In this document: positions 962 to 40,933 of the stretch, piece after piece | How positions within the stretch are numbered: position 1 is the first letter of the stretch | Layout: each line of letters begins with the position of its first letter | Made by a program: the position numbers and the translations under genes | NCBI GenBank assembly: GCA_013153635.1 | Contig: JAADDZ010000028.1 | Coordinates: 1-41,504, forward strand | Source: Aquificota bacterium | GTDB lineage: Bacteria > Aquificota > Aquificia > Aquificales > Hydrogenothermaceae | Length of the DNA stretch: 41,504 nt | Reading direction: 5' to 3' | Notes under the pieces: generated by a model | What the model saw: the letters and a program-made list of their open reading frames with translations, nothing else | Told to the model about the DNA's origin: nothing | Database searches by the model: none

Positions 962-2020
962 ATGGAAGATAAGTTAATAGAATATCTGGTCAAACTTGTT
1001 AATATTCCTTCTGTTATTGGAAATGAAAAACAAATAGCTGATTTTGTAGAAGGTTTTGCTAGGTCTTTGGGTTACAGTTATGTTAGGCATAATAACTCTC
1101 TTATTGTGTACAAAAATGAGAACAGACTGACAGACTATAAAAAAACCGTTGGTCTTTTGGGTCACTTGGATACTGTTCCCGGTGAAAATGATTTTAATGG
1201 TAAGATTATTGATGATAAGGTTTATGGTCTTGGTGCTAGCGATATGAAGAGTGGTCTTGCTGTTATGATGGCGTTGATGGAGATGTTTAAAGATAAAGAC
1301 AGTAGGTATGATTTAGTTTTTATTTTTTATGAGAAAGAGGAAGGTCCCTATGAGGAAAATGGTCTAGAACCTTTATTAGATTATCCTCTTGTTAAGAATC
1401 TAGATTTTGTTTTTGCTTTGGAACCTACTGATAATACTGTGCAGGTTGGTTGCTTAGGGACTTTACATGCATCTATTGTTTTTGAGGGTAAAAGAGCTCA
1501 TTCTGCTAGACCTTGGCAAGGTGAAAATGCTATTCATAAGGCTTCAGACTTTCTTAAGAGACTTTCTAATTATGGGTTTCGGGAATATGAGTTTGAAGGT
1601 GTGAAGTATATAGAGGTTATGAATGCTACTATGGTTGATTTTTCTGGTGGGAGAAATATTATCCCTGATAAGTTTGTAATCAATGTAAATTATAGATTTT
1701 CTCCGGGAAAAACTATAGAACAAGCAAAGAAAGATATTTTTGAGCTTGTAAATGGTGATGCTAAGGTGGAATTTACTGATTTGTGTCCTTCTGGAAAAGT
1801 GTGTTTAGATAATCCTGTTTTGGTTGATTTTTTAAAGAAGTTTGAATTACCTGTTGAACCTAAGCAGGCTTGGACTGATGTTGCTAGACTTAGTGTTCAT
1901 GGTATTGATGCTGTTAATTTTGGTCCTGGTCTACCGTCTCAAGCTCATCAAAAAAATGAGTATGTCCCGATAGGGAATGTGGTCAAAAACTTTAAAATTT
2001 TTGATAAGTTCTTTAGCTAG
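962..2020 (+). CDS. dapE: Succinyl-diaminopimelate desuccinylase (M20 family)
   Basis: M20-family zinc amidohydrolase, 352 residues. The metal and catalytic motifs are in order: GHLDTVPG (H68, D70), GLGASDMKSG (D94), and YEKEEGPYEENGL (catalytic E126, ligand E127). The block LEPTDNTVQVGCLGTLHAS and the following RAHSARPWQGENAIHK resemble the actinobacterial type of DapE, and the C-terminal metal His lies in AHQKNEYVP. DapE removes succinate from N-succinyl-LL-diaminopimelate in lysine and peptidoglycan precursor synthesis. Other M20 hydrolases (acetylornithine or LysW-lysine hydrolases) are the alternative, but the SARPWQGENA block favours DapE. It follows the IclR gene by one base and overlaps the convergent gene's 3' end by 8 bp. 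Confidence 0.8.
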   Translation: MEDKLIEYLVKLVNIPSVIGNEKQIADFVEGFARSLGYSYVRHNNSLIVYKNENRLTDYKKTVGLLGHLDTVPGENDFNGKIIDDKVYGLGASDMKSGLAVMMALMEMFKDKDSRYDLVFIFYEKEEGPYEENGLEPLLDYPLVKNLDFVFALEPTDNTVQVGCLGTLHASIVFEGKRAHSARPWQGENAIHKASDFLKRLSNYGFREYEFEGVKYIEVMNATMVDFSGGRNIIPDKFVINVNYRFSPGKTIEQAKKDIFELVNGDAKVEFTDLCPSGKVCLDNPVLVDFLKKFELPVEPKQAWTDVARLSVHGIDAVNFGPGLPSQAHQKNEYVPIGNVVKNFKIFDKFFS

Positions 2021-2876
2021 ACTCTACCTTTTCGAAGGAGATTTTCTCTTTTCCGTCTATTTGTTCCGGTTTTATTATCACTACTTCTTTTAAATTTTTT
2101 TGAAATATCTTCCTAAAATAAGAAGATGTTGAGTTTTCTAATTTTTCTTTGAATATACTGTAAGAGTTAAAAGGGTAGCTGATTATATTGACTTTGTGTA
2201 GGTCTATATATTCTAATTCGCTTATATTTTCTGTCTGCATGGAAGAACTGTAGTAAATTATATCGGGGTCTAAGAGATATATCTCTTTTATAGCTTCTTC
2301 TGGTGAGCCTACGTCGACATTTATATCTCTTTGTATGATTATAGAGTTTCCATGTCTTAAAAGATAAGAAATGGGGTTTTCTAAGGTGCATATGATTTTT
2401 TTATGTTTTTTGTTTATCAGTTTTAATAAGGAGTAAACAAATGTGCTGTTTGAAAGCCATCTATTTCCTAATATCAGAAAAATCCCTAGTTTTTGTTGGG
2501 AAAATTTTTCGTAGAAGTCTAAAAATTCACCTATATCAGTGAATATGTCTGCTGGCTCTGGTATGATAAATGGTGTTTTTACTATGTTTATAACATAGCT
2601 ACCTCTTTGGAGGAAGTAGCTAACTCTTATTCTTCCTACCTCTGAAAGTCCAAAGGAGAAGATTTCTTTTATCGTTGGTGTTTTTGGGATTGAAGCGGTG
2701 TTTCTTAGGGTAAGTAGTATCTCTTTTGTATCTTTTTCTGTTAGCTTTATTTCTAGTATCTTTTTTATTTCTCCGTTTTCTTCTCTAATTACAGGTTCAA
2801 AACCGGGGACTAGGAACATATTAACAAATTTGTGAGTCTGTTTTAGATAGTTTAGTATAAAGTTGGTATAGTTCAT
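2013..2876 (-). CDS. PilT-like protein with degenerate ATPase motifs
   Basis: 287 residues, collinear with twitching-motility ATPase PilT over most of its length: an N-terminal domain with TEKDTKEIL and FSFGLSEVGRIRVSYFLQRGS, then a RecA-like core. The catalytic motifs are degraded. The Walker A site, GPTGSGKST in PilT, reads GNRWLSNST (137-145), so the Gly-Lys pair is lost. The Asp-box IEDPIE reads LENPIS (165-170), and Walker B DPDVILVGE reads DPDIIYYSS (203-211). The HRH and QRE-like blocks (RHGNSIIIQRD) remain. It therefore probably cannot hydrolyse ATP. A regulatory or structural role in a type IV pilus or secretion system is inference; no other pilus gene is in view. It is divergent from era and convergent with dapE. 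The reading frame is intact, so it is not an obvious pseudogene. Confidence 0.6.
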   Translation of the reverse strand: MNYTNFILNYLKQTHKFVNMFLVPGFEPVIREENGEIKKILEIKLTEKDTKEILLTLRNTASIPKTPTIKEIFSFGLSEVGRIRVSYFLQRGSYVINIVKTPFIIPEPADIFTDIGEFLDFYEKFSQQKLGIFLILGNRWLSNSTFVYSLLKLINKKHKKIICTLENPISYLLRHGNSIIIQRDINVDVGSPEEAIKEIYLLDPDIIYYSSSMQTENISELEYIDLHKVNIISYPFNSYSIFKEKLENSTSSYFRKIFQKNLKEVVIIKPEQIDGKEKISFEKVESS

Positions 2877-10619: not shown

Positions 10620-11381
10620 ATGAAAGGAAAAGTATACCTTGTAGGCTGTGGAACTGGAGACCCTGAATTACTTACAATAAAGGCTCTAAAAGCTTTTGAA
10701 ACAGCAGACATAGCATTTATAGACCATCTAGTAACTGATGATATAGTGTATCTTTTACCAAAAAGCACTAAAAAGTTTTACGTAGGGAAACAAAAAGATA
10801 AATCAAGCATCACCCAAAGCCAAATAAATAGACTTATGTATATTTTTGCAAAGGAAGGTTTTAACGTAGCAAGGCTAAAAAGCGGAGACCCTTTTGTATT
10901 TGGCAGAGGAGGGGAAGAACTTTTGTATCTTTTATCAAAAGAAATAGAAGTGGAAATCATTCCCGGAGTTTCTTCAGCTACAACTGCACCTTTATACGCT
11001 GGAATACCTGTAACTTTTAGAAATATTTCTACAGGTTTTTCTGTAGTATCAGCTTACTTATCTGGTAACAGATTTAATAAACAATGGATTCCTCTTTTGA
11101 AACTTAAAAATCATACAGTGGTAGTTTTGATGGGTTTGAGCAAAGTAAAGGAGATTGTTATTGAGATAAAAAAACAAAACATACCCTTAGAGACACCTGT
11201 AGCTGTAATTAGCAAAGCGTCTAGACCAGACCAGAAAATACATGTAGGTACAGTAACATCTCTAATAGAGATGTCTAAAAAAACAGATAAACCAGCTGTT
11301 TTAGTCTTTGGTGATACTGTTAGGATAAATCACCTCCTATCTAACACAACAAACAAAGGAGAACTAATATGGAAAAACTAA
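10620..11381 (+). CDS. cobA: Uroporphyrinogen-III C-methyltransferase
   Basis: 253-residue SAM-dependent methyltransferase of the SUMT family. The SAM loop VGCGTGDPELLT (8-19), LKSGDPFVFGRGGEE and EIIPGVSSATTAPLYAGIPVTFR are all characteristic. It methylates uroporphyrinogen III at C2 and C7 to precorrin-2, the siroheme precursor. It overlaps the start of nirA by 13 bp, and nirA needs siroheme, so cofactor supply is built into the operon. The start is backed by AAAAGGA upstream. A separate dehydrogenase/ferrochelatase (CysG-N or Met8-like) is not in the window. Confidence 0.95.
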   Translation: MKGKVYLVGCGTGDPELLTIKALKAFETADIAFIDHLVTDDIVYLLPKSTKKFYVGKQKDKSSITQSQINRLMYIFAKEGFNVARLKSGDPFVFGRGGEELLYLLSKEIEVEIIPGVSSATTAPLYAGIPVTFRNISTGFSVVSAYLSGNRFNKQWIPLLKLKNHTVVVLMGLSKVKEIVIEIKKQNIPLETPVAVISKASRPDQKIHVGTVTSLIEMSKKTDKPAVLVFGDTVRINHLLSNTTNKGELIWKN

Positions 11382-13309
11382 AAAAAATCTCTGAAGAAAG
11401 AAACAGAAGACTAAATAAAATAGAAAAATTAAAACAAGAACACTGTCCTAAAGAGACATGGGAAAAACTAGAATACTATGCAAGACACGGCTTTTCATCT
11501 ATCCCCCAGTATGACCTTGACTTTTTTCTAAAATGTTTTGGTATTTTTTACCGTCCTGCAACTCCAGAAAGGTTCATGCTTAGAGTAAGGATTCCCGGAG
11601 GAAAGCTAACACCCAAGCAGGCACAGAAGATTGGAGAGATAGCCCAAAGATATGGAAACGACTATATAGACCTAACTACGAGAATGCAAGTAGAACTTAG
11701 ATATTTGAGAATAGAAGATATTCCTACCATTTTAAAAGAATTAGAATCTGTCCAAATCACAACATTTCAAACCGGCGTAGACAACTTTAGAAACATCGTT
11801 CAAGACCCGCTAGATGGTATCGCATTCGATAATGTAATATCTACATGGGACTCCCTTTTAAAGATACAACAGATTTTTTTAAAAAAAGAAGAATGGATAT
11901 GTACTCTACCTAGAAAATTTAACATAGGTATATCTGGTTCTTACTCTAATAGATGCAATATCTACGGACATGATGCTTGTTTTGTACTTGCAGAAAAAGA
12001 CGGAATTTATGGATTCAATGTGTACCTAGGAGGTAAGGTTGGTGCAACCGCTCAACCTGCTGATGTCTTCCTCTTGGAAGAAGAGATACCTATTTTTTTC
12101 GAAGCTCTTGCAAAAATTTTCAAAACATATGGATTTAGAGACAGTAGAAACAAAAATCGTCTCAAATATATGATAGATGCTGTAGGTATGGAGGAGATTA
12201 TAGATGCTGTAAAACACGAAGCAAAAAGAAACTTTGAAAGTTCTGGAAACACTTTAACCTCTCTACAAGGTGGAGAAAAATCTGGGAAAATCCTTCTTAA
12301 AGATGGCACTTTTGCTGTTCATATGGTAGTCCCTTCAGGTATATTTAGTGGAACTGCAATGATACAAGCTTCTCAAATAGCCCAAGAGTATGGATATGGT
12401 ATTAGATTAACAGTTCAGCAAAATCTATACATAGTAGGTATTAAAGAAGAAGACTTTCAAAATGTCTTATCTCAACCTATTTATAAAACTTACAAAAATG
12501 TAAACTCTATATTTTTCAACGACCTTATAGCCTGTGCTGGTACTGAACACTGCCCCTTTGGAGTAATACCAAACAAACCTGATGCCATAGAGATGGCAGA
12601 GTATCTAACAGAAAAATTTCCTATAAACGATGGAAAAATCAGAATGTACTGGTCTGCATGTACTAAAGGCTGTGGTATTCATGGAGTAGGAGATTTAGGT
12701 TTTGTGGGAGTAAAATTCAAACAAGATAATCAAGCAGTTCTAGGGGTAGACATATATTACGGAGGAACGATAACAGGAGAATCACAAGAAGGAAAAGTAC
12801 TATTTAAAAACATATCCCTCGACAGAGCAAAGGAGATAGTAGAAGAGATTGTACAGATTTACATCAACCTAAAGAACCCAAAAGAGAGTTTCGAGAACTT
12901 TTACAAAAGAATTTTAAGCAAAGTATCAAAAGAAGCGTTTAGATTCATAGTACTGTTTAATAACATCGTAAAAGAGGTTTTCCCACATCTAAAACTAGAA
13001 CTAAATCACATGATAATTGGGAAATCTTCAGAAGAAGAAGAGATATTTATATTAGGATACCAGCTTTACAAAAAAGCCACAGGAAAAAGCCCTTACACAA
13101 GAGCAAACATACTACAAATATATGATGAACCAGAACCAGAAAAACCATCAAAACTAAACCCAGAAATCCCTAAAGAATTAGATAACATCATTCTAAAGAT
13201 GATTACAAAAAACCCCCACAAAAGATACAAAGTATTTACAGAGATAGAAGCAGATTTAAAACAGATAGAGAGGCTAAAGGAGGGTTTTAATGCAATTGGA
13301 AAACTTTAA
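11369..13309 (+). CDS. nirA: Ferredoxin-type nitrite reductase with a kinase C-lobe-like C-terminal extension
   Basis: 646 residues; known NirA/sulfite reductases are near 510-570. Residues 1-535 are a complete enzyme of this family: a ferredoxin-like half-domain (FMLRVRIPGGKLTPKQ, LTTRMQVELR), a central catalytic half, and the siroheme/4Fe-4S ligands C389-X5-C395 and C431-X3-C435. It reduces nitrite to ammonia with ferredoxin electrons; sulfite reductase is the alternative, but operon context favours nitrite. Residues about 556-635 resemble the end of bacterial Hanks-type kinases: FILGYQLYKKATGKSPY (helix F region), a Pro-rich spacer, then IPKELDNIILKMITKNPHKRY with the buried Arg, and an ADL-type end. 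The kinase N-lobe, HRD and DFG are absent, so it cannot phosphorylate. AAAGGAG supports the start. It overlaps both neighbours (13 and 20 bp). Confidence 0.92.
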   Translation: MEKLKKISEERNRRLNKIEKLKQEHCPKETWEKLEYYARHGFSSIPQYDLDFFLKCFGIFYRPATPERFMLRVRIPGGKLTPKQAQKIGEIAQRYGNDYIDLTTRMQVELRYLRIEDIPTILKELESVQITTFQTGVDNFRNIVQDPLDGIAFDNVISTWDSLLKIQQIFLKKEEWICTLPRKFNIGISGSYSNRCNIYGHDACFVLAEKDGIYGFNVYLGGKVGATAQPADVFLLEEEIPIFFEALAKIFKTYGFRDSRNKNRLKYMIDAVGMEEIIDAVKHEAKRNFESSGNTLTSLQGGEKSGKILLKDGTFAVHMVVPSGIFSGTAMIQASQIAQEYGYGIRLTVQQNLYIVGIKEEDFQNVLSQPIYKTYKNVNSIFFNDLIACAGTEHCPFGVIPNKPDAIEMAEYLTEKFPINDGKIRMYWSACTKGCGIHGVGDLGFVGVKFKQDNQAVLGVDIYYGGTITGESQEGKVLFKNISLDRAKEIVEEIVQIYINLKNPKESFENFYKRILSKVSKEAFRFIVLFNNIVKEVFPHLKLELNHMIIGKSSEEEEIFILGYQLYKKATGKSPYTRANILQIYDEPEPEKPSKLNPEIPKELDNIILKMITKNPHKRYKVFTEIEADLKQIERLKEGFNAIGKL

Positions 13310-14609: not shown

Positions 14610-17087
14610 ATGAATGAACTGTTAGCAAAAGTCCAATGTCCCTACTGTGGGGTAGGGTGTGGATTGGATATTGTAAAAGACAAAAAAGGAAGAATAAAGG
14701 TAAAAGGAGACTACAGTCACCCCTCTTCTAAAGGTGATATATGTATAAAACCTATCCCCCTTCCCAAGGTTATGGACATTGGAAGAGTACCAGCACCTTT
14801 GTACAGAGAAAGTAAAAAAGAGGAATTTAGAGAAATATCTTGGGAAGAAGCATTTGATATTATTGTACAAAAATTAAAACAGAACAAACCAGACGAAAAC
14901 TATTTTTACCTATCTGGTCAGCTTTTTACAGAAGATATTTATGTGATAAACAAATTTATAAAAGGTTTTATAAAAACAAACAATGTAGATGCAAACTCTA
15001 GATTATGTATGACTTCTGCAGTCATGGGTTATAAACTCGCATTTGGTTCTGATGGTCCTCCTGCCTCATTTGAAGACATAGACTATGCTGATGCTTTTGT
15101 ACTGGCAGGTTCTAATGCCGCATGGACTCACCCTGTTGCATTTAAACGTATGTTAAAAAGGAAAAAAAGTAACCCAGATACAGTAATCGTAGCGATAGAC
15201 CCAGTATATACAGAAACAGCAGAGAAGGCAGACATATGGATACCTATAAAACCGGGAACAGATACAGTGCTGTTCAATAGTGTCCTGTACTTGTTAAATG
15301 AGAAAGGTTGGATAGATAAAAACTTTATACAAAATCATACAGAAGGTTTTGAAGAAGCGTTAGAAGAAGCCAAAAATTACCCTCCCGAGATAGCTTCCAA
15401 GATATGTGACATAGACCCCCAGCTTATAGAGATACTAGCACAGATATATGGAAAGAGGAAAAAAGTCCTTTCCTTTTGGACAATGGGATTAAACCAATCT
15501 TCAAATGGAACAATGAAAAATATAGCTCTTATAAATCTACATCTTGCAACTGGGAGATTAAACGAAAAAGGAAGTCCTTTCTCTCTCACTGGTCAACCAA
15601 ATGCAATGGGAGGAAGAGAAGTAGGATATTTAGTAAATGGACTTCCCGGATACAGAGATGTTAGGAATGAAGAAGATAGAAATTTTATCGAAAAGTTTTG
15701 GAAAATACCAAAAGGGAGTATAAACCCCAAACCGGGAAAAACAGTAGTAGAAATAATAAACCACATGTTAACAGGAGAAATAAAACTGTTCTGGATTGTA
15801 TGTACAAATCCAGCTGTTACTATGCCCAACTTAGAAAAATTTTGGAAAGCTCTAGAAAACACATTTGTAATAGTCCAAGACGCCTACCTCACTGATAGTA
15901 TGGACTTTGCTAATTTAGTTTTACCAGCTACCCAATGGGGAGAAAAAGAAGGTGTAATGACAGGCTCTGATAGGACTGTAACCTTTAATCAAAAATTCAA
16001 ACAGCCTCCACCTCAATGTAAACATGACTGGGAAATATTCGCAGAAATAGCAAAAAGGCTCGGTTGGGAAAAATGGTTCAGCTATGAAACCAGCGAAGAT
16101 ATATTCAATGAATACAAAAAATCTACTTCTGGAAGACTCTGTGATATATCAGAGTTTTCATATGAACAGCTTCCAAAACAGTGGGGAGGTAAATGGCTGT
16201 ATAAAAATCTAGAATTCAAAACCCCTTCGAAAAAGGCAAAATTCAACCGTGCAGTATACCAACCACCAGCAGATAGATTAGATTATCCCTTTAGTTTTAT
16301 CTTAACCACTGGAAGAACCAAAAAACAATGGCATACTATGACAAGAACAGGGAAATCATTTGAACTAGTAAGAGGAGAAGACGAACCATATATAATGATA
16401 AATGAAGATGACGCTTACGAACTTGGAATAATAGATGGAGACTACATTACAGTAGAATCCCCAAGAGGAAAAATATACATAAAAGCAAAAATCGCAGATA
16501 TTAAGAAAGGAGTAGCCTTTGCACCATTTGGATACGGACTTATGTATCACTACCCTACAAACATAGTAGTATCAGATGCTCTAGACCCTATATCAAAAGA
16601 GCCAGAACTTAAATTTTCTGCTATATATATAAAAGCAAAGAAAAAGAAGATAGCCTCTTTATCTCTAGACAGTAAAGAACTTTTAAAAAGCTCCTTACCA
16701 AAGATAAAAGATACTTTAGACACTGTTTTAGAGAAGATGTACGACTCCCTATTTGAGTTGTACCCAGAGTTAAAAAATATGTTTACCTCACCTATAAAAG
16801 AAGTATCAAAAAAACAGGCAAGCTTACTTATAGAGTTTGCACAAAACATCGACAATATAGAAAACCTAGAACCTAAAATAGAAAAAGTAGTTTATACCCA
16901 CATAAAGAAAAAAGTCCAACCGAAACATTACGCCTTATTTGCAAAAGAGTTCATTAAAACTCTAAAAGAGTATACAGACCTTGATGATGCCCAGATAGAA
17001 GCTTGGAAGGAAGGATACAACTACATAGCAAACATCTTAAGTGCAAAAGAAAAAAGGATTTACGAGAAGAATCTACTAACTAAATAG
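14610..17087 (+). CDS. narB: Assimilatory nitrate reductase fused to a C-terminal globin domain
   Basis: 825 residues. Residues 1-675 are a molybdopterin nitrate reductase of the Nas/NarB type: the 4Fe-4S ligands C10, C13, C17, C45; the NSRLCMTSAVMGYK segment holding the Mo-ligand Cys; FTLTGQPNAMGGREVG-like and TGRTKKQWHTMTRTG cofactor-binding blocks. It reduces nitrate to nitrite in the cytoplasm. Residues about 681-822 are a globin of the flavohemoglobin class: KMYDSLFELYPELKNMF with Tyr711 (B10), Gln736 (E7), and proximal His764 (F8) in VYTHIKKKVQPKHY, ending WKEGYNYIANILSAKEKRIYE. All three heme-pocket residues are kept. There is no flavin reductase domain. The fusion is in one uninterrupted frame. 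GAGGAG supports the start. It is the last gene before a terminator. What the globin does here (NO removal, O2 binding or sensing) is inference. Confidence 0.93.
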   Translation: MNELLAKVQCPYCGVGCGLDIVKDKKGRIKVKGDYSHPSSKGDICIKPIPLPKVMDIGRVPAPLYRESKKEEFREISWEEAFDIIVQKLKQNKPDENYFYLSGQLFTEDIYVINKFIKGFIKTNNVDANSRLCMTSAVMGYKLAFGSDGPPASFEDIDYADAFVLAGSNAAWTHPVAFKRMLKRKKSNPDTVIVAIDPVYTETAEKADIWIPIKPGTDTVLFNSVLYLLNEKGWIDKNFIQNHTEGFEEALEEAKNYPPEIASKICDIDPQLIEILAQIYGKRKKVLSFWTMGLNQSSNGTMKNIALINLHLATGRLNEKGSPFSLTGQPNAMGGREVGYLVNGLPGYRDVRNEEDRNFIEKFWKIPKGSINPKPGKTVVEIINHMLTGEIKLFWIVCTNPAVTMPNLEKFWKALENTFVIVQDAYLTDSMDFANLVLPATQWGEKEGVMTGSDRTVTFNQKFKQPPPQCKHDWEIFAEIAKRLGWEKWFSYETSEDIFNEYKKSTSGRLCDISEFSYEQLPKQWGGKWLYKNLEFKTPSKKAKFNRAVYQPPADRLDYPFSFILTTGRTKKQWHTMTRTGKSFELVRGEDEPYIMINEDDAYELGIIDGDYITVESPRGKIYIKAKIADIKKGVAFAPFGYGLMYHYPTNIVVSDALDPISKEPELKFSAIYIKAKKKKIASLSLDSKELLKSSLPKIKDTLDTVLEKMYDSLFELYPELKNMFTSPIKEVSKKQASLLIEFAQNIDNIENLEPKIEKVVYTHIKKKVQPKHYALFAKEFIKTLKEYTDLDDAQIEAWKEGYNYIANILSAKEKRIYEKNLLTK

Positions 17088-30829: not shown

Positions 30830-31498
30830 ATGTTAGAACTCTTTACAAAAAAGACAAAAATAGAGTACAGATACCCTAATGAGAAGGTAGCTATATTTAT
30901 AGATGGAGCAAATATGTTCCACGCATCTAACTATCTAAAATTAAAAATCGATTACAGAAAGCTTATTGAGATACTTAGAAGAGATAGATGGCTTTTGAGA
31001 GCTTATTTTTACACAGGTATTCCAGCTGATAGAAATCTACCTCCAGAAATATATCAACAGTTTAAAAAACAGCAAAACTTTTTAAATGAACTATCAAATA
31101 TAGGTATAAAAGTAAAAACCATGCCTTTAAAAAGAACTCCAGAGGGTTTTATAGAAAAAGGTATAGATATTCTTTTAGCAACAGATATGGTAAGCTTAGC
31201 TTTTAGAGATGCTTATGATACAGCTATACTTGTTAGTGGAGATAGTGATTACGTTCCTGTAGTAGAAGAGATTCAAACTCTTGGTAAAAGAGTAGAAAAT
31301 GTAACATTTAAAAGAGAAAGCTCTTTTCATCTTCGAAAGGTATGTGACAGCTACCTAATCCTCGATGAGATAAAAGACGAATTTACTACCTCTTTAAATG
31401 GTACTTCTCTACCAAAACCTGTACAGCCATCATTTAAAAGTTTTTTCAAATCAATGTTAGAAAAAATAAAAAGTCTTTCTACAAGGGGTAAAAAATGA
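30830..31498 (+). CDS. NYN-domain (PIN-like) protein, LabA/DUF88 type
   Basis: 222 residues with a PIN-like nuclease fold of the NYN family. The acidic residues are in VAIFIDGANMF (D25), ILLATDMV and AILVSGDSDYVPVVEEIQTLGK. A C-terminal tail of about 50 residues is basic and less conserved. NYN proteins are thought to be RNases; some members (LabA) act in clock or stress circuits. It starts a plus-strand operon and overlaps the HDAC gene by four bases. GGGAGTG upstream supports the start. Confidence 0.88.
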   Translation: MLELFTKKTKIEYRYPNEKVAIFIDGANMFHASNYLKLKIDYRKLIEILRRDRWLLRAYFYTGIPADRNLPPEIYQQFKKQQNFLNELSNIGIKVKTMPLKRTPEGFIEKGIDILLATDMVSLAFRDAYDTAILVSGDSDYVPVVEEIQTLGKRVENVTFKRESSFHLRKVCDSYLILDEIKDEFTTSLNGTSLPKPVQPSFKSFFKSMLEKIKSLSTRGKK

Positions 31499-32415
31499 AA
31501 AATGTAGGATATGTGTATGACCCTGTTTATCTGAAACACGATACAGGAGAAAATCACCCAGAGAACTATAAAAGGCTCATATCTATACAAAAACACCTAA
31601 ACCCGGTAATGGATAAATTAACATTTATAAAACCAAGAAAAGCTACTGCTAGAGATATAACTATGGTACATGATACTTACTATCCCCAAGAAATTATGGA
31701 TTTGTGTTCTGGAGGTGGCACACATCTAGACCCTGATACTGTATGCTCTGAAGGTTCTTATGAAGCCGCAGTATACGCTGTAGGAGCTGGACTAGAAGCT
31801 GTAGACAGAGTAAAAGACTCCCAGATAGAAAGGGTCTTTTGTGCGGTAAGACCCCCGGGACACCATGCAGAAGAAGCAAAAGCTATGGGTTTTTGTATCT
31901 TCAACAACATAGCAATAACAGCAAGGTACGCACAAAAACAAGGATACGAAAAAGTTTTTATAATAGATTTTGATGCTCACCACGGTAACGGTACTCAAAA
32001 GATTTTTTATGAAGATGACACAGTCTTTTACTTTAGTACTCACCAATATCCCTTCTATCCGGGTACAGGTTCAGCAGAAGAAAAAGGTAAAGGAAAAGGA
32101 TATGGGTTCACCTATAATGTCCCTCTCCCAGCATGGACAGGAGATTCTGTCTACGAAAATGTATATTCGACTATCGTCCCAGAGCTGATAAACAGATTTA
32201 AACCTGACATAGTTCTTGTTTCTGCTGGATATGACCTCCATCAAGCAGACCCTCTTACCAATCTGATGGTATCTACAGAAGGTATAGGAAAGATAGTAGA
32301 GCTAATCTTAAAGTCTGCAAACACTCCTTTCATTTTTATGCTAGAGGGAGGATACAATTTAGATGCCCTAGGAGAAAGTGTTAAACTAACTGTAGAAAAA
32401 ATGCTGACCGTTTAA
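31495..32415 (+). CDS. Histone deacetylase-family (AcuC-like) deacetylase
   Basis: 306 residues of the zinc-dependent HDAC/AcuC/acetylpolyamine amidohydrolase family. Catalytic H123-H124 in RPPGHHAEE; zinc ligands D160 and H162 in DFDAHHGNGTQ and D252 in HQADPL; GYN tyrosine in LEGGYNLDAL. All key residues are present. In bacteria such enzymes deacetylate acetyl-CoA synthetase or small acetylated amines; the substrate here is unknown. No acs or acetyltransferase gene is adjacent. It is coupled by a four-base overlap to the NYN gene and is 10 bp before hemJ. Confidence 0.93.
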   Translation: MKNVGYVYDPVYLKHDTGENHPENYKRLISIQKHLNPVMDKLTFIKPRKATARDITMVHDTYYPQEIMDLCSGGGTHLDPDTVCSEGSYEAAVYAVGAGLEAVDRVKDSQIERVFCAVRPPGHHAEEAKAMGFCIFNNIAITARYAQKQGYEKVFIIDFDAHHGNGTQKIFYEDDTVFYFSTHQYPFYPGTGSAEEKGKGKGYGFTYNVPLPAWTGDSVYENVYSTIVPELINRFKPDIVLVSAGYDLHQADPLTNLMVSTEGIGKIVELILKSANTPFIFMLEGGYNLDALGESVKLTVEKMLTV

Positions 32416-39794: not shown

Positions 39795-40052
39795 TTAGAA
39801 AACATTATTTTTTAATAAATCTTCGCCCCCAATCCTTATAATTTCTCTATAATCCTTCACACAAAAAGCAAAAACCTTATCTCCCTTTTCTAGAAATTTT
39901 TCTGTCTCTTGTATTATCTGCCTTACAGAATTTTCAGGAAGAGTTGTTTCAAATACGCTAAATTGAGTTCTGATACCATAAGATTTTAATATTTTGTACA
40001 CTTTTCTCCATACTTTTGGATTTGATATGTCATAACACACAACAAATCTCAC
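39795..40052 (-). CDS. cas2: CRISPR-associated protein Cas2 (first copy)
   Basis: 85 residues, ferredoxin-like fold of Cas2. The N-terminal strand FVVCYDISNP carries the conserved Asp8, followed by WRKVYKILKSYGIRTQFSVFE, the family's helix-strand signature. It partners Cas1 in spacer acquisition. It overlaps cas1 by four bases. It differs clearly from the second Cas2 at 40930 (for example TQFSVFETTL against QKSVFEVPI), so the two are diverged paralogues. Confidence 0.9.
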   Translation of the reverse strand: MRFVVCYDISNPKVWRKVYKILKSYGIRTQFSVFETTLPENSVRQIIQETEKFLEKGDKVFAFCVKDYREIIRIGGEDLLKNNVF

Positions 40053-40933
40053 AACATACTCTCTATTTGGCTAAGAAATAGTTGAGAGTTATTTATGTAC
40101 TTTGGATTTTTTAAAATTTCCTCATTTACCTTTTTGAAAAAATCCTTTGACTTTTCAGAAGTTATCATATAACCTTTTTTCTTTTTGAAATCCGACTTCC
40201 TAAAATAACCACTATTAAACAATTCTAAAACATACATAGACAAAGCAGGTCTAGAATATTCAATTAAATCAGATACAAATGCAGAGTGAGAACCTCTTTT
40301 CCTATGCAAAAAACCAATATATGGGTCATAGCCTCTAGATGTAACCAAAGAAAACAAAACATTATGGTACAAAGTATAAACAAGGCTCAAAACAGCATTC
40401 ACAGGGTCTAGAGATGGGTTATACTTTCTACCTTCAAATCCATACTTATTTTTTAGGCTTTTTTTAAAAAAATCAAAAAACAAAGCAGATGCCAACCCTT
40501 CGATTCCCAATACTTCCTTGTAAGTAGAAACATTTAATAACTTTTCTTTTAGATTTGTTAAATCTAAACCAGTATGTTTTTCTATCTGTTCTAACTTGTT
40601 AAAAACTATAAATTTAGTAATTTTTGCTTTCTTTTGTGAATTATTAAAAGCACTATACTGTTTTAACCTCATTTTATAATCACTTTTTAAATAAAATTTC
40701 GTAATCAGACCTCTAAGCTTGCCTCCCAATGTAGAAAGAAAAATATCCACATCATACGCAAGCAAGAAATTTATAGCATTTATAGAAATGTGAACATTAC
40801 CAAAAATAAATAAGTTATCTATAAGATTGATAGGGATTTCTCCTATCTTTTCTTTTCCATTATATATAACAATTTGATTATCTTTCTTTTTAACAGAAGC
40901 TCCTTGCGTAGATATAAAATAGTTTTGTCTCAA
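40049..40933 (-). CDS. cas1: CRISPR-associated endonuclease Cas1
   Basis: 294 residues. The N-terminal beta domain (about 1-80) includes FGNVHISINAINFLLAYDVDIFLST; the C-terminal helical domain has the metal residues E145 (IEGLASALFF), H210 (GFLHRKRGSHSA) and E225 with D222 (SDLIEYSRP). Cas1 integrates prespacers into the array together with Cas2. Start and stop each overlap a cas2 gene by four bases. No effector genes or CRISPR repeats lie within the window, so the type cannot be fixed. Confidence 0.95.
   Translation of the reverse strand: MRQNYFISTQGASVKKKDNQIVIYNGKEKIGEIPINLIDNLFIFGNVHISINAINFLLAYDVDIFLSTLGGKLRGLITKFYLKSDYKMRLKQYSAFNNSQKKAKITKFIVFNKLEQIEKHTGLDLTNLKEKLLNVSTYKEVLGIEGLASALFFDFFKKSLKNKYGFEGRKYNPSLDPVNAVLSLVYTLYHNVLFSLVTSRGYDPYIGFLHRKRGSHSAFVSDLIEYSRPALSMYVLELFNSGYFRKSDFKKKKGYMITSEKSKDFFKKVNEEILKNPKYINNSQLFLSQIESML

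Follow-up and report, generated by a model that had tools for sequence, protein, structure and literature searches.

Identity and predicted fold

A 287-aa protein encoded at 2013-2876 (minus strand) of the stretch of DNA analysed here (41,504 nucleotides from an Aquificota genome, G000, of 1.69 Mb; hereafter the window) is a relative of PilT and PilU by sequence profile, profile-profile alignment and predicted fold, and belongs to a single-copy family of the Aquificales in which, judging from sequence, no nucleotide-binding or catalytic residues are recognisable. PilT is the motor that retracts the type IV pili of bacteria, and the Aquificales, an order of mostly heat-loving bacteria, include the structurally studied Aquifex PilT. 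The explanation that we favour, with somewhat less than even confidence, is that this ATPase-dead paralog regulates the retraction motor in the Aquificales, its N-terminal domain packing against the ATPase domain of PilT so as to cap or slow the motor.

An M20 peptidase gene (962-2020) converges on the open reading frame, with an overlap of 8 bases at its end. The frame is intact, and 48 further intact orthologs were found. The match of the product to Pfam T2SSE was marginally below threshold (22.4 versus 24.9 bits). Against NCBIfam TIGR01420 (pilT_fam) it scored 84.3 bits (E 9e-24), far under the cut-off of 319 bits, and five other members of the family scored 45-85 bits, likewise below it. 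The top PDB match obtained with phmmer was A. aeolicus PilT (E 2.5e-19, residues 20-218), and profile-profile alignment of the family with PilT gave an E value of 1.6e-47 and a probability of 100. The preliminary description of the window had called the protein PilT-like from the order of its motifs, and this identity is borne out by the TIGR01420 and PDB matches, the profile-profile alignment and the predicted fold.

AF2 models of the 287-aa protein and of a second family member had pLDDT values of 91.4 and 88.5, respectively. The fold predicted for the 287-aa protein is that of PilT and not an unrelated one; the top Foldseek matches were PilT4 (6ojy, E 5e-19), PilU (9n32), Thermus PilT2 and A. 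aeolicus PilT, with TMq values of 0.71-0.80 to PilT/PilU structures. DotB, PilB and GspE, which are active ATPases, have the superfamily fold in common with it (TMq about 0.45-0.71), but match less well than PilT/PilU in both sequence and fold. A search for viral folds with the 287-aa protein gave nothing specific.

In the secondary structure of both models an N-terminal domain is followed by a RecA-like core, and the chain ends about where the C-terminal helical domain of PilT starts. The global profile alignment reaches as far as residue 307 of the 363 in PilT1 and is of low confidence towards its end; the [AG]IRxLIR motif of the AIRNLIRE domain occurs in 0 of 49 family members versus 26 of 44 PilTs; and PilT open frames in the compared genomes are mostly about 361-385 aa long. 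The gene had been described as an intact frame encoding a full-length protein; the first part is right, but the protein falls short of a full-length PilT, ending where the C-terminal helical domain of PilT begins. By AF2, profile alignment and motif count, residues 216-287 (2016-2231, minus strand) form a degenerate end of the RecA-like core, in which the HIS box is lost and after which the AIRNLIRE domain would start.

Distribution and ancestry of the family

To delimit the family, a profile of 19 orthologs was searched against 136 Aquificota genomes at E<=1e-40. Members were found in 49 of these genomes, exactly one copy in each and all free of internal stops. All carriers come from three families within the order Aquificales, and no genome from other families of the class was among the matches at this threshold; within the family to which the window belongs, the carriers are confined to two genera (g1 and g2). 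Members are separated from canonical PilTs by a clear gap in score: the 49 members scored 172-413 bits, and no PilT with a Walker A in the fetched genomes exceeded 113. A wider scan of genome contigs, which used two short peptide patterns and could miss distant relatives elsewhere, gave 172-413 bits for members and at most 119 for Walker A proteins, and outside Aquificota-type loci returned canonical Walker A PilTs plus one family member in each of two oddly titled metagenome-assembled genomes (MAGs). These MAGs are titled Acidobacteria (contig L033) and Verrucomicrobia (contig L055). L033 has Aquificaceae-like synteny and L055 shares one neighbouring gene cluster, so that mistaken titles or contaminant contigs are the probable explanation.

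In six genomes of the window's own family that are without the gene, no convincing remnant was found beside the orthologous M20 gene; the best candidate was a single 63-residue match (E 0.04) inside another ORF. The absence is therefore clean at this locus. In a maximum-likelihood tree all sampled members grouped together with an SH-aLRT support of 100, and a very long stem leads to this clade. The tree came from a quick search with SH-aLRT support only, and the point at which the clade joins PilT/PilU is not fixed by it; as far as sequences tell, the family has one origin. Carrier genomes probably annotate the gene as PilT twitching motility protein, which would be misleading.

Lost and retained residues

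The three motifs quoted in the preliminary description are exact. The former Walker A (residues 137-145, GNRWLSNST; 2442-2468, minus strand) has the residues V, H, N, A, Y or I in the lysine column of the family, and GxxxxGK[ST] is present in 0 of the 49 orthologs, so its loss is more than chance. In the former ASP box (residues 165-170, LENPIS; 2367-2384, minus strand) the first Glu, E166, is invariant (49/49), and the Mg-coordinating second Glu is replaced by S, T or N in 47/49. The catalytic Glu of the former Walker B (residues 203-211, DPDIIYYSS; 2244-2270, minus strand) is Ser in the 287-aa protein; 39 of the 49 orthologs have D or E in this column (E204), but these lie beside small insertions and lack the GE context, and we therefore did not count the residue as kept. 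Both histidines of the HIS box are gone in the family. In the numbering of V. cholerae/P. aeruginosa PilT, which is the open-frame number of L083 minus 22, the losses comprise K136, E163 (the second ASP-box Glu), the HIS-box histidines, R97 and R194.

The invariant core FSFG..GRIRVSY..QRGSY..KTP..P (residues 73-106; 2559-2660, minus strand) contains Arg finger 1 (R84), which is retained in 48 of 49 orthologs; R82, R84, Q90 and R91 are each present in 48-49 of them. Arg finger 2 is gone in all 49, its position (R97, or R119 in the PilT1 frame) being taken by V, L, I, T, M or A and by V99 in the 287-aa protein. Among the charged residues invariant in the sampled PilT and PilB/GspE proteins, only PilT R82 (R84 here) and E159 (E166 here) stay invariant. 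The PilT-specific residues of GR.R...QRG and QRE..D also persist (R82, R84, Q90, R91, Q182, R183, E184 and D188 of the 287-aa protein).

Selection and gradient of conservation

The dN/dS ratios (Nei-Gojobori) of close ortholog pairs were 0.005-0.21 with a median of 0.11, and canonical PilT pairs had a median of 0.08. The ratio of the N-terminal domain was mostly below that of the remainder of the protein. This domain (residues 1-106; 2559-2876, minus strand) is the most conserved part of the family: mean pairwise identity was 0.55 for residues 1-106, 0.45 for 125-215 and 0.23 for 216-287, and the order is reversed in canonical PilT1, with 0.58, 0.80 and 0.81 for the same regions. The trend was unchanged in a subset of matched genomes. 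The family has long been under purifying selection, which is most stringent in the N-terminal domain and at Arg finger 1; constraint falls mainly on the region with which a PilT subunit packs against its neighbour, and the RecA half drifts. No disruption was seen in close relatives. The view of the gene as a selected pseudo-ATPase, put forward earlier, gains support from the single-copy, intact, Walker A-less orthologs in 49 genomes, the low dN/dS and the PilT fold.

Genomic surroundings and co-occurrence with PilT

In 24 of 31 loci, all of the Aquificaceae type, the gene is convergent with that of a PLP-dependent decarboxylase, assigned by eye from its sequence to the ornithine/diaminopimelate type. 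Upstream there are often Mrp-type and cysteine desulfurase genes, and other loci have other housekeeping genes. Hydrogenothermaceae carriers have the gene convergent with the M20 peptidase gene, and in the window era lies on its other side. No pil genes or pil operon were recognised near the gene in the Aquificota loci examined. Every carrier has canonical PilT, with two intact copies in most and one found in a few fragmented assemblies; in the genome of the window the two are PilT1 (C13, 20132-21160) and PilT2 (C27, 42930-43967). Co-occurrence with pil genes had been proposed as a check on the protein's role; PilT accompanies the gene in all carriers, but non-carriers have it too and its presence therefore does not discriminate, and linkage to a pil operon is lacking.

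The only type II secretion linkage seen was in one genome (G064; L111, 5456-8525), where the gene is divergent from genes for a gspC-like PDZ protein and gspE, with 3 bases between. A type II secretion partner was considered as a general role on this account, and was weakened by two carriers (G037 and G041) that at E<=1e-15 have only PilB besides their PilTs and no GspE-like match.

A putative pseudo-motor acting on PilT

In PilB, each chain has its N-terminal domain packed against the ATPase domain of the adjoining chain; of the two Arg fingers, R271 binds E357, a Glu in the ASP box of that neighbour, and R286 binds the nucleotide phosphate (PMC5424180); the Arg fingers of CpaF likewise act in trans (PMC12019362). 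We mapped E357 and R271 of PilB onto the family from the number of residues that separate them from the catalytic Glu and the HIS box, and E357 thus corresponds to the second ASP-box Glu, which is absent from the family. If this packing is extended from PilB to PilT-type rings, Arg finger 1 would touch the Mg-coordinating ASP-box Glu of the neighbour. The paralog would then have kept the trans finger R84 while losing the corresponding Glu in cis, so an intact partner for R84 would be found only on canonical PilT, and it would be onto the ATPase domain of PilT that the N-terminal domain of the paralog docks. An interface without the phosphate-contacting Arg finger 2 would be non-hydrolysing and non-productive, and might cap, brake or tune the PilT ring. 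A salt bridge between R84 and E166 was also considered as the retained R271-E357 contact of PilB; this was dropped, since E357 corresponds to the second ASP-box Glu (S170 here) and E166 is the first.

The earlier suggestion that the protein modulates PilT hexamers or docks at a pilus motor seems plausible and indirectly favoured. Its more specific form, in which a dedicated Aquificales pseudo-ATPase uses its N-terminal domain to enter or cap the rings of canonical PilT as a built-in retraction brake, seems to us rather doubtful. In favour of an action on PilT are the contact between PilT and PilU, which withstands Walker A mutation in two-hybrid tests (PMC6821130), and the Walker-less PilT1 of Bdellovibrio, whose deletion partly suppresses a pilT2 mutant (PMC4237445). 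On the other side, PilT and PilU form separate homohexamers that interact, not mixed rings (PMC6821130); mixed rings are therefore not the default, which counts against placing the paralog within a PilT ring. The loci examined have no adjacent pil gene, and the co-occurrence with PilT is uninformative, which also weigh against an action on PilT. R84 may be merely structural, which would speak against docking on PilT.

The same PilU data bear on a different reading, in which the protein has a structural or docking role of its own in the pilus machine and forms a separate ring or binds PilC, a polar scaffold or a second motor (by PilU-like stacking) outside the PilT ring. Separate PilU and PilT rings that both contact PilC even with Walker A mutated (PMC6821130) would fit it, as would the AIRNLIRE domain missing from the family and from PilU alike. 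We regard it as unlikely, if a serious competitor: the C-terminal two thirds, which would make up much of the ring body, are the least conserved part (0.45 and 0.23), and in a homo-ring Arg finger 1 would miss its ASP-box partner. The lack of pil linkage, the metabolic genes nearby and the weakly conserved C-terminal part could instead point to an exapted protein whose present role is unrelated to pili. This is improbable in our view, as the invariant PilT-specific residues are retained, which suggests that a PilT-type contact is still in use.

A regulator of the extension or secretion ATPase (PilB or GspE) in place of PilT is slightly more improbable still; the arrangement in G064 would suit it, but the gsp adjacency is confined to that genome, G037 and G041 lack a GspE-like match, and sequence and fold are closest to PilT/PilU, not PilB. 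A decaying pseudogene or an annotation artefact, to which the vanished catalytic motifs and shortened C-terminus might have pointed, is refuted by the 49 intact orthologs of 49, the dN/dS values, none above 0.21, and the clean absence at the M20 locus in six non-carriers.

Comparison with known systems

With PilT, the type IVa pilus retraction ATPase (TIGR01420), the family shares the N-terminal domain, the RecA-like core and the FSFG..GR.R...QRG signature; unlike PilT, it is without Walker A, the Mg-coordinating Glu, the HIS box, Arg finger 2 and the AIRNLIRE domain, and the catalytic Glu is missing in the 287-aa member. PilU, a PilT-dependent retraction ATPase, is likewise a PilT paralog without AIRNLIRE and with PilT as a plausible partner, but its Walker A and B are both retained and required; moreover, two canonical PilT/PilU-type ATPases are already present in the Aquificota besides the ATPase-dead paralog.

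A characterised likeness, judged by its published description, is PilT1 of Bdellovibrio bacteriovorus (Bd1510), a PilT paralog reported to lack Walker A beside the canonical PilT2, whose deletion partly relieves a pilT2 mutant (PMC4237445). A Walker-less PilT is thus not unprecedented. Unlike the Aquificales gene, that of Bdellovibrio PilT1 sits in a pil operon and its product reportedly keeps the Walker B box. A family that is inherited vertically across an order, and from which the AIRNLIRE domain and most of the catalytic residues have gone as well, does appear to be new; no description of it turned up in a limited full-text literature search.

Pilus motors are studied as homohexamers of active ATPases. 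Within the type IV filament superfamily we know of no pseudo-ATPase that acts as a mixed-ring regulator, and a literature search found none. If the proposed action on PilT is true, pilus retraction would be controllable by a pseudoenzyme subunit, as is the case with pseudokinases and other dead enzymes. The family also offers a natural test of what Arg finger 1 and the N-terminal domain of PilT do when catalysis is gone.

Other genes in the window

The gene at 14610-17087 encodes an unusual fusion, a molybdopterin oxidoreductase of 825 aa that carries a globin domain at its C-terminus (Pfam Globin, residues 709-808). It lies downstream of genes for a two-domain nitrite/sulfite reductase (11369-13309) and a tetrapyrrole methylase (10620-11381), and together these genes look like a nitrate/nitrite assimilation cluster. 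The cas1 gene (40049-40933) is located near the right end of the window, so that a CRISPR locus may extend beyond it. A protein of the histone-deacetylase fold (Pfam Hist_deacetyl, E 2e-92) is encoded at 31495-32415.
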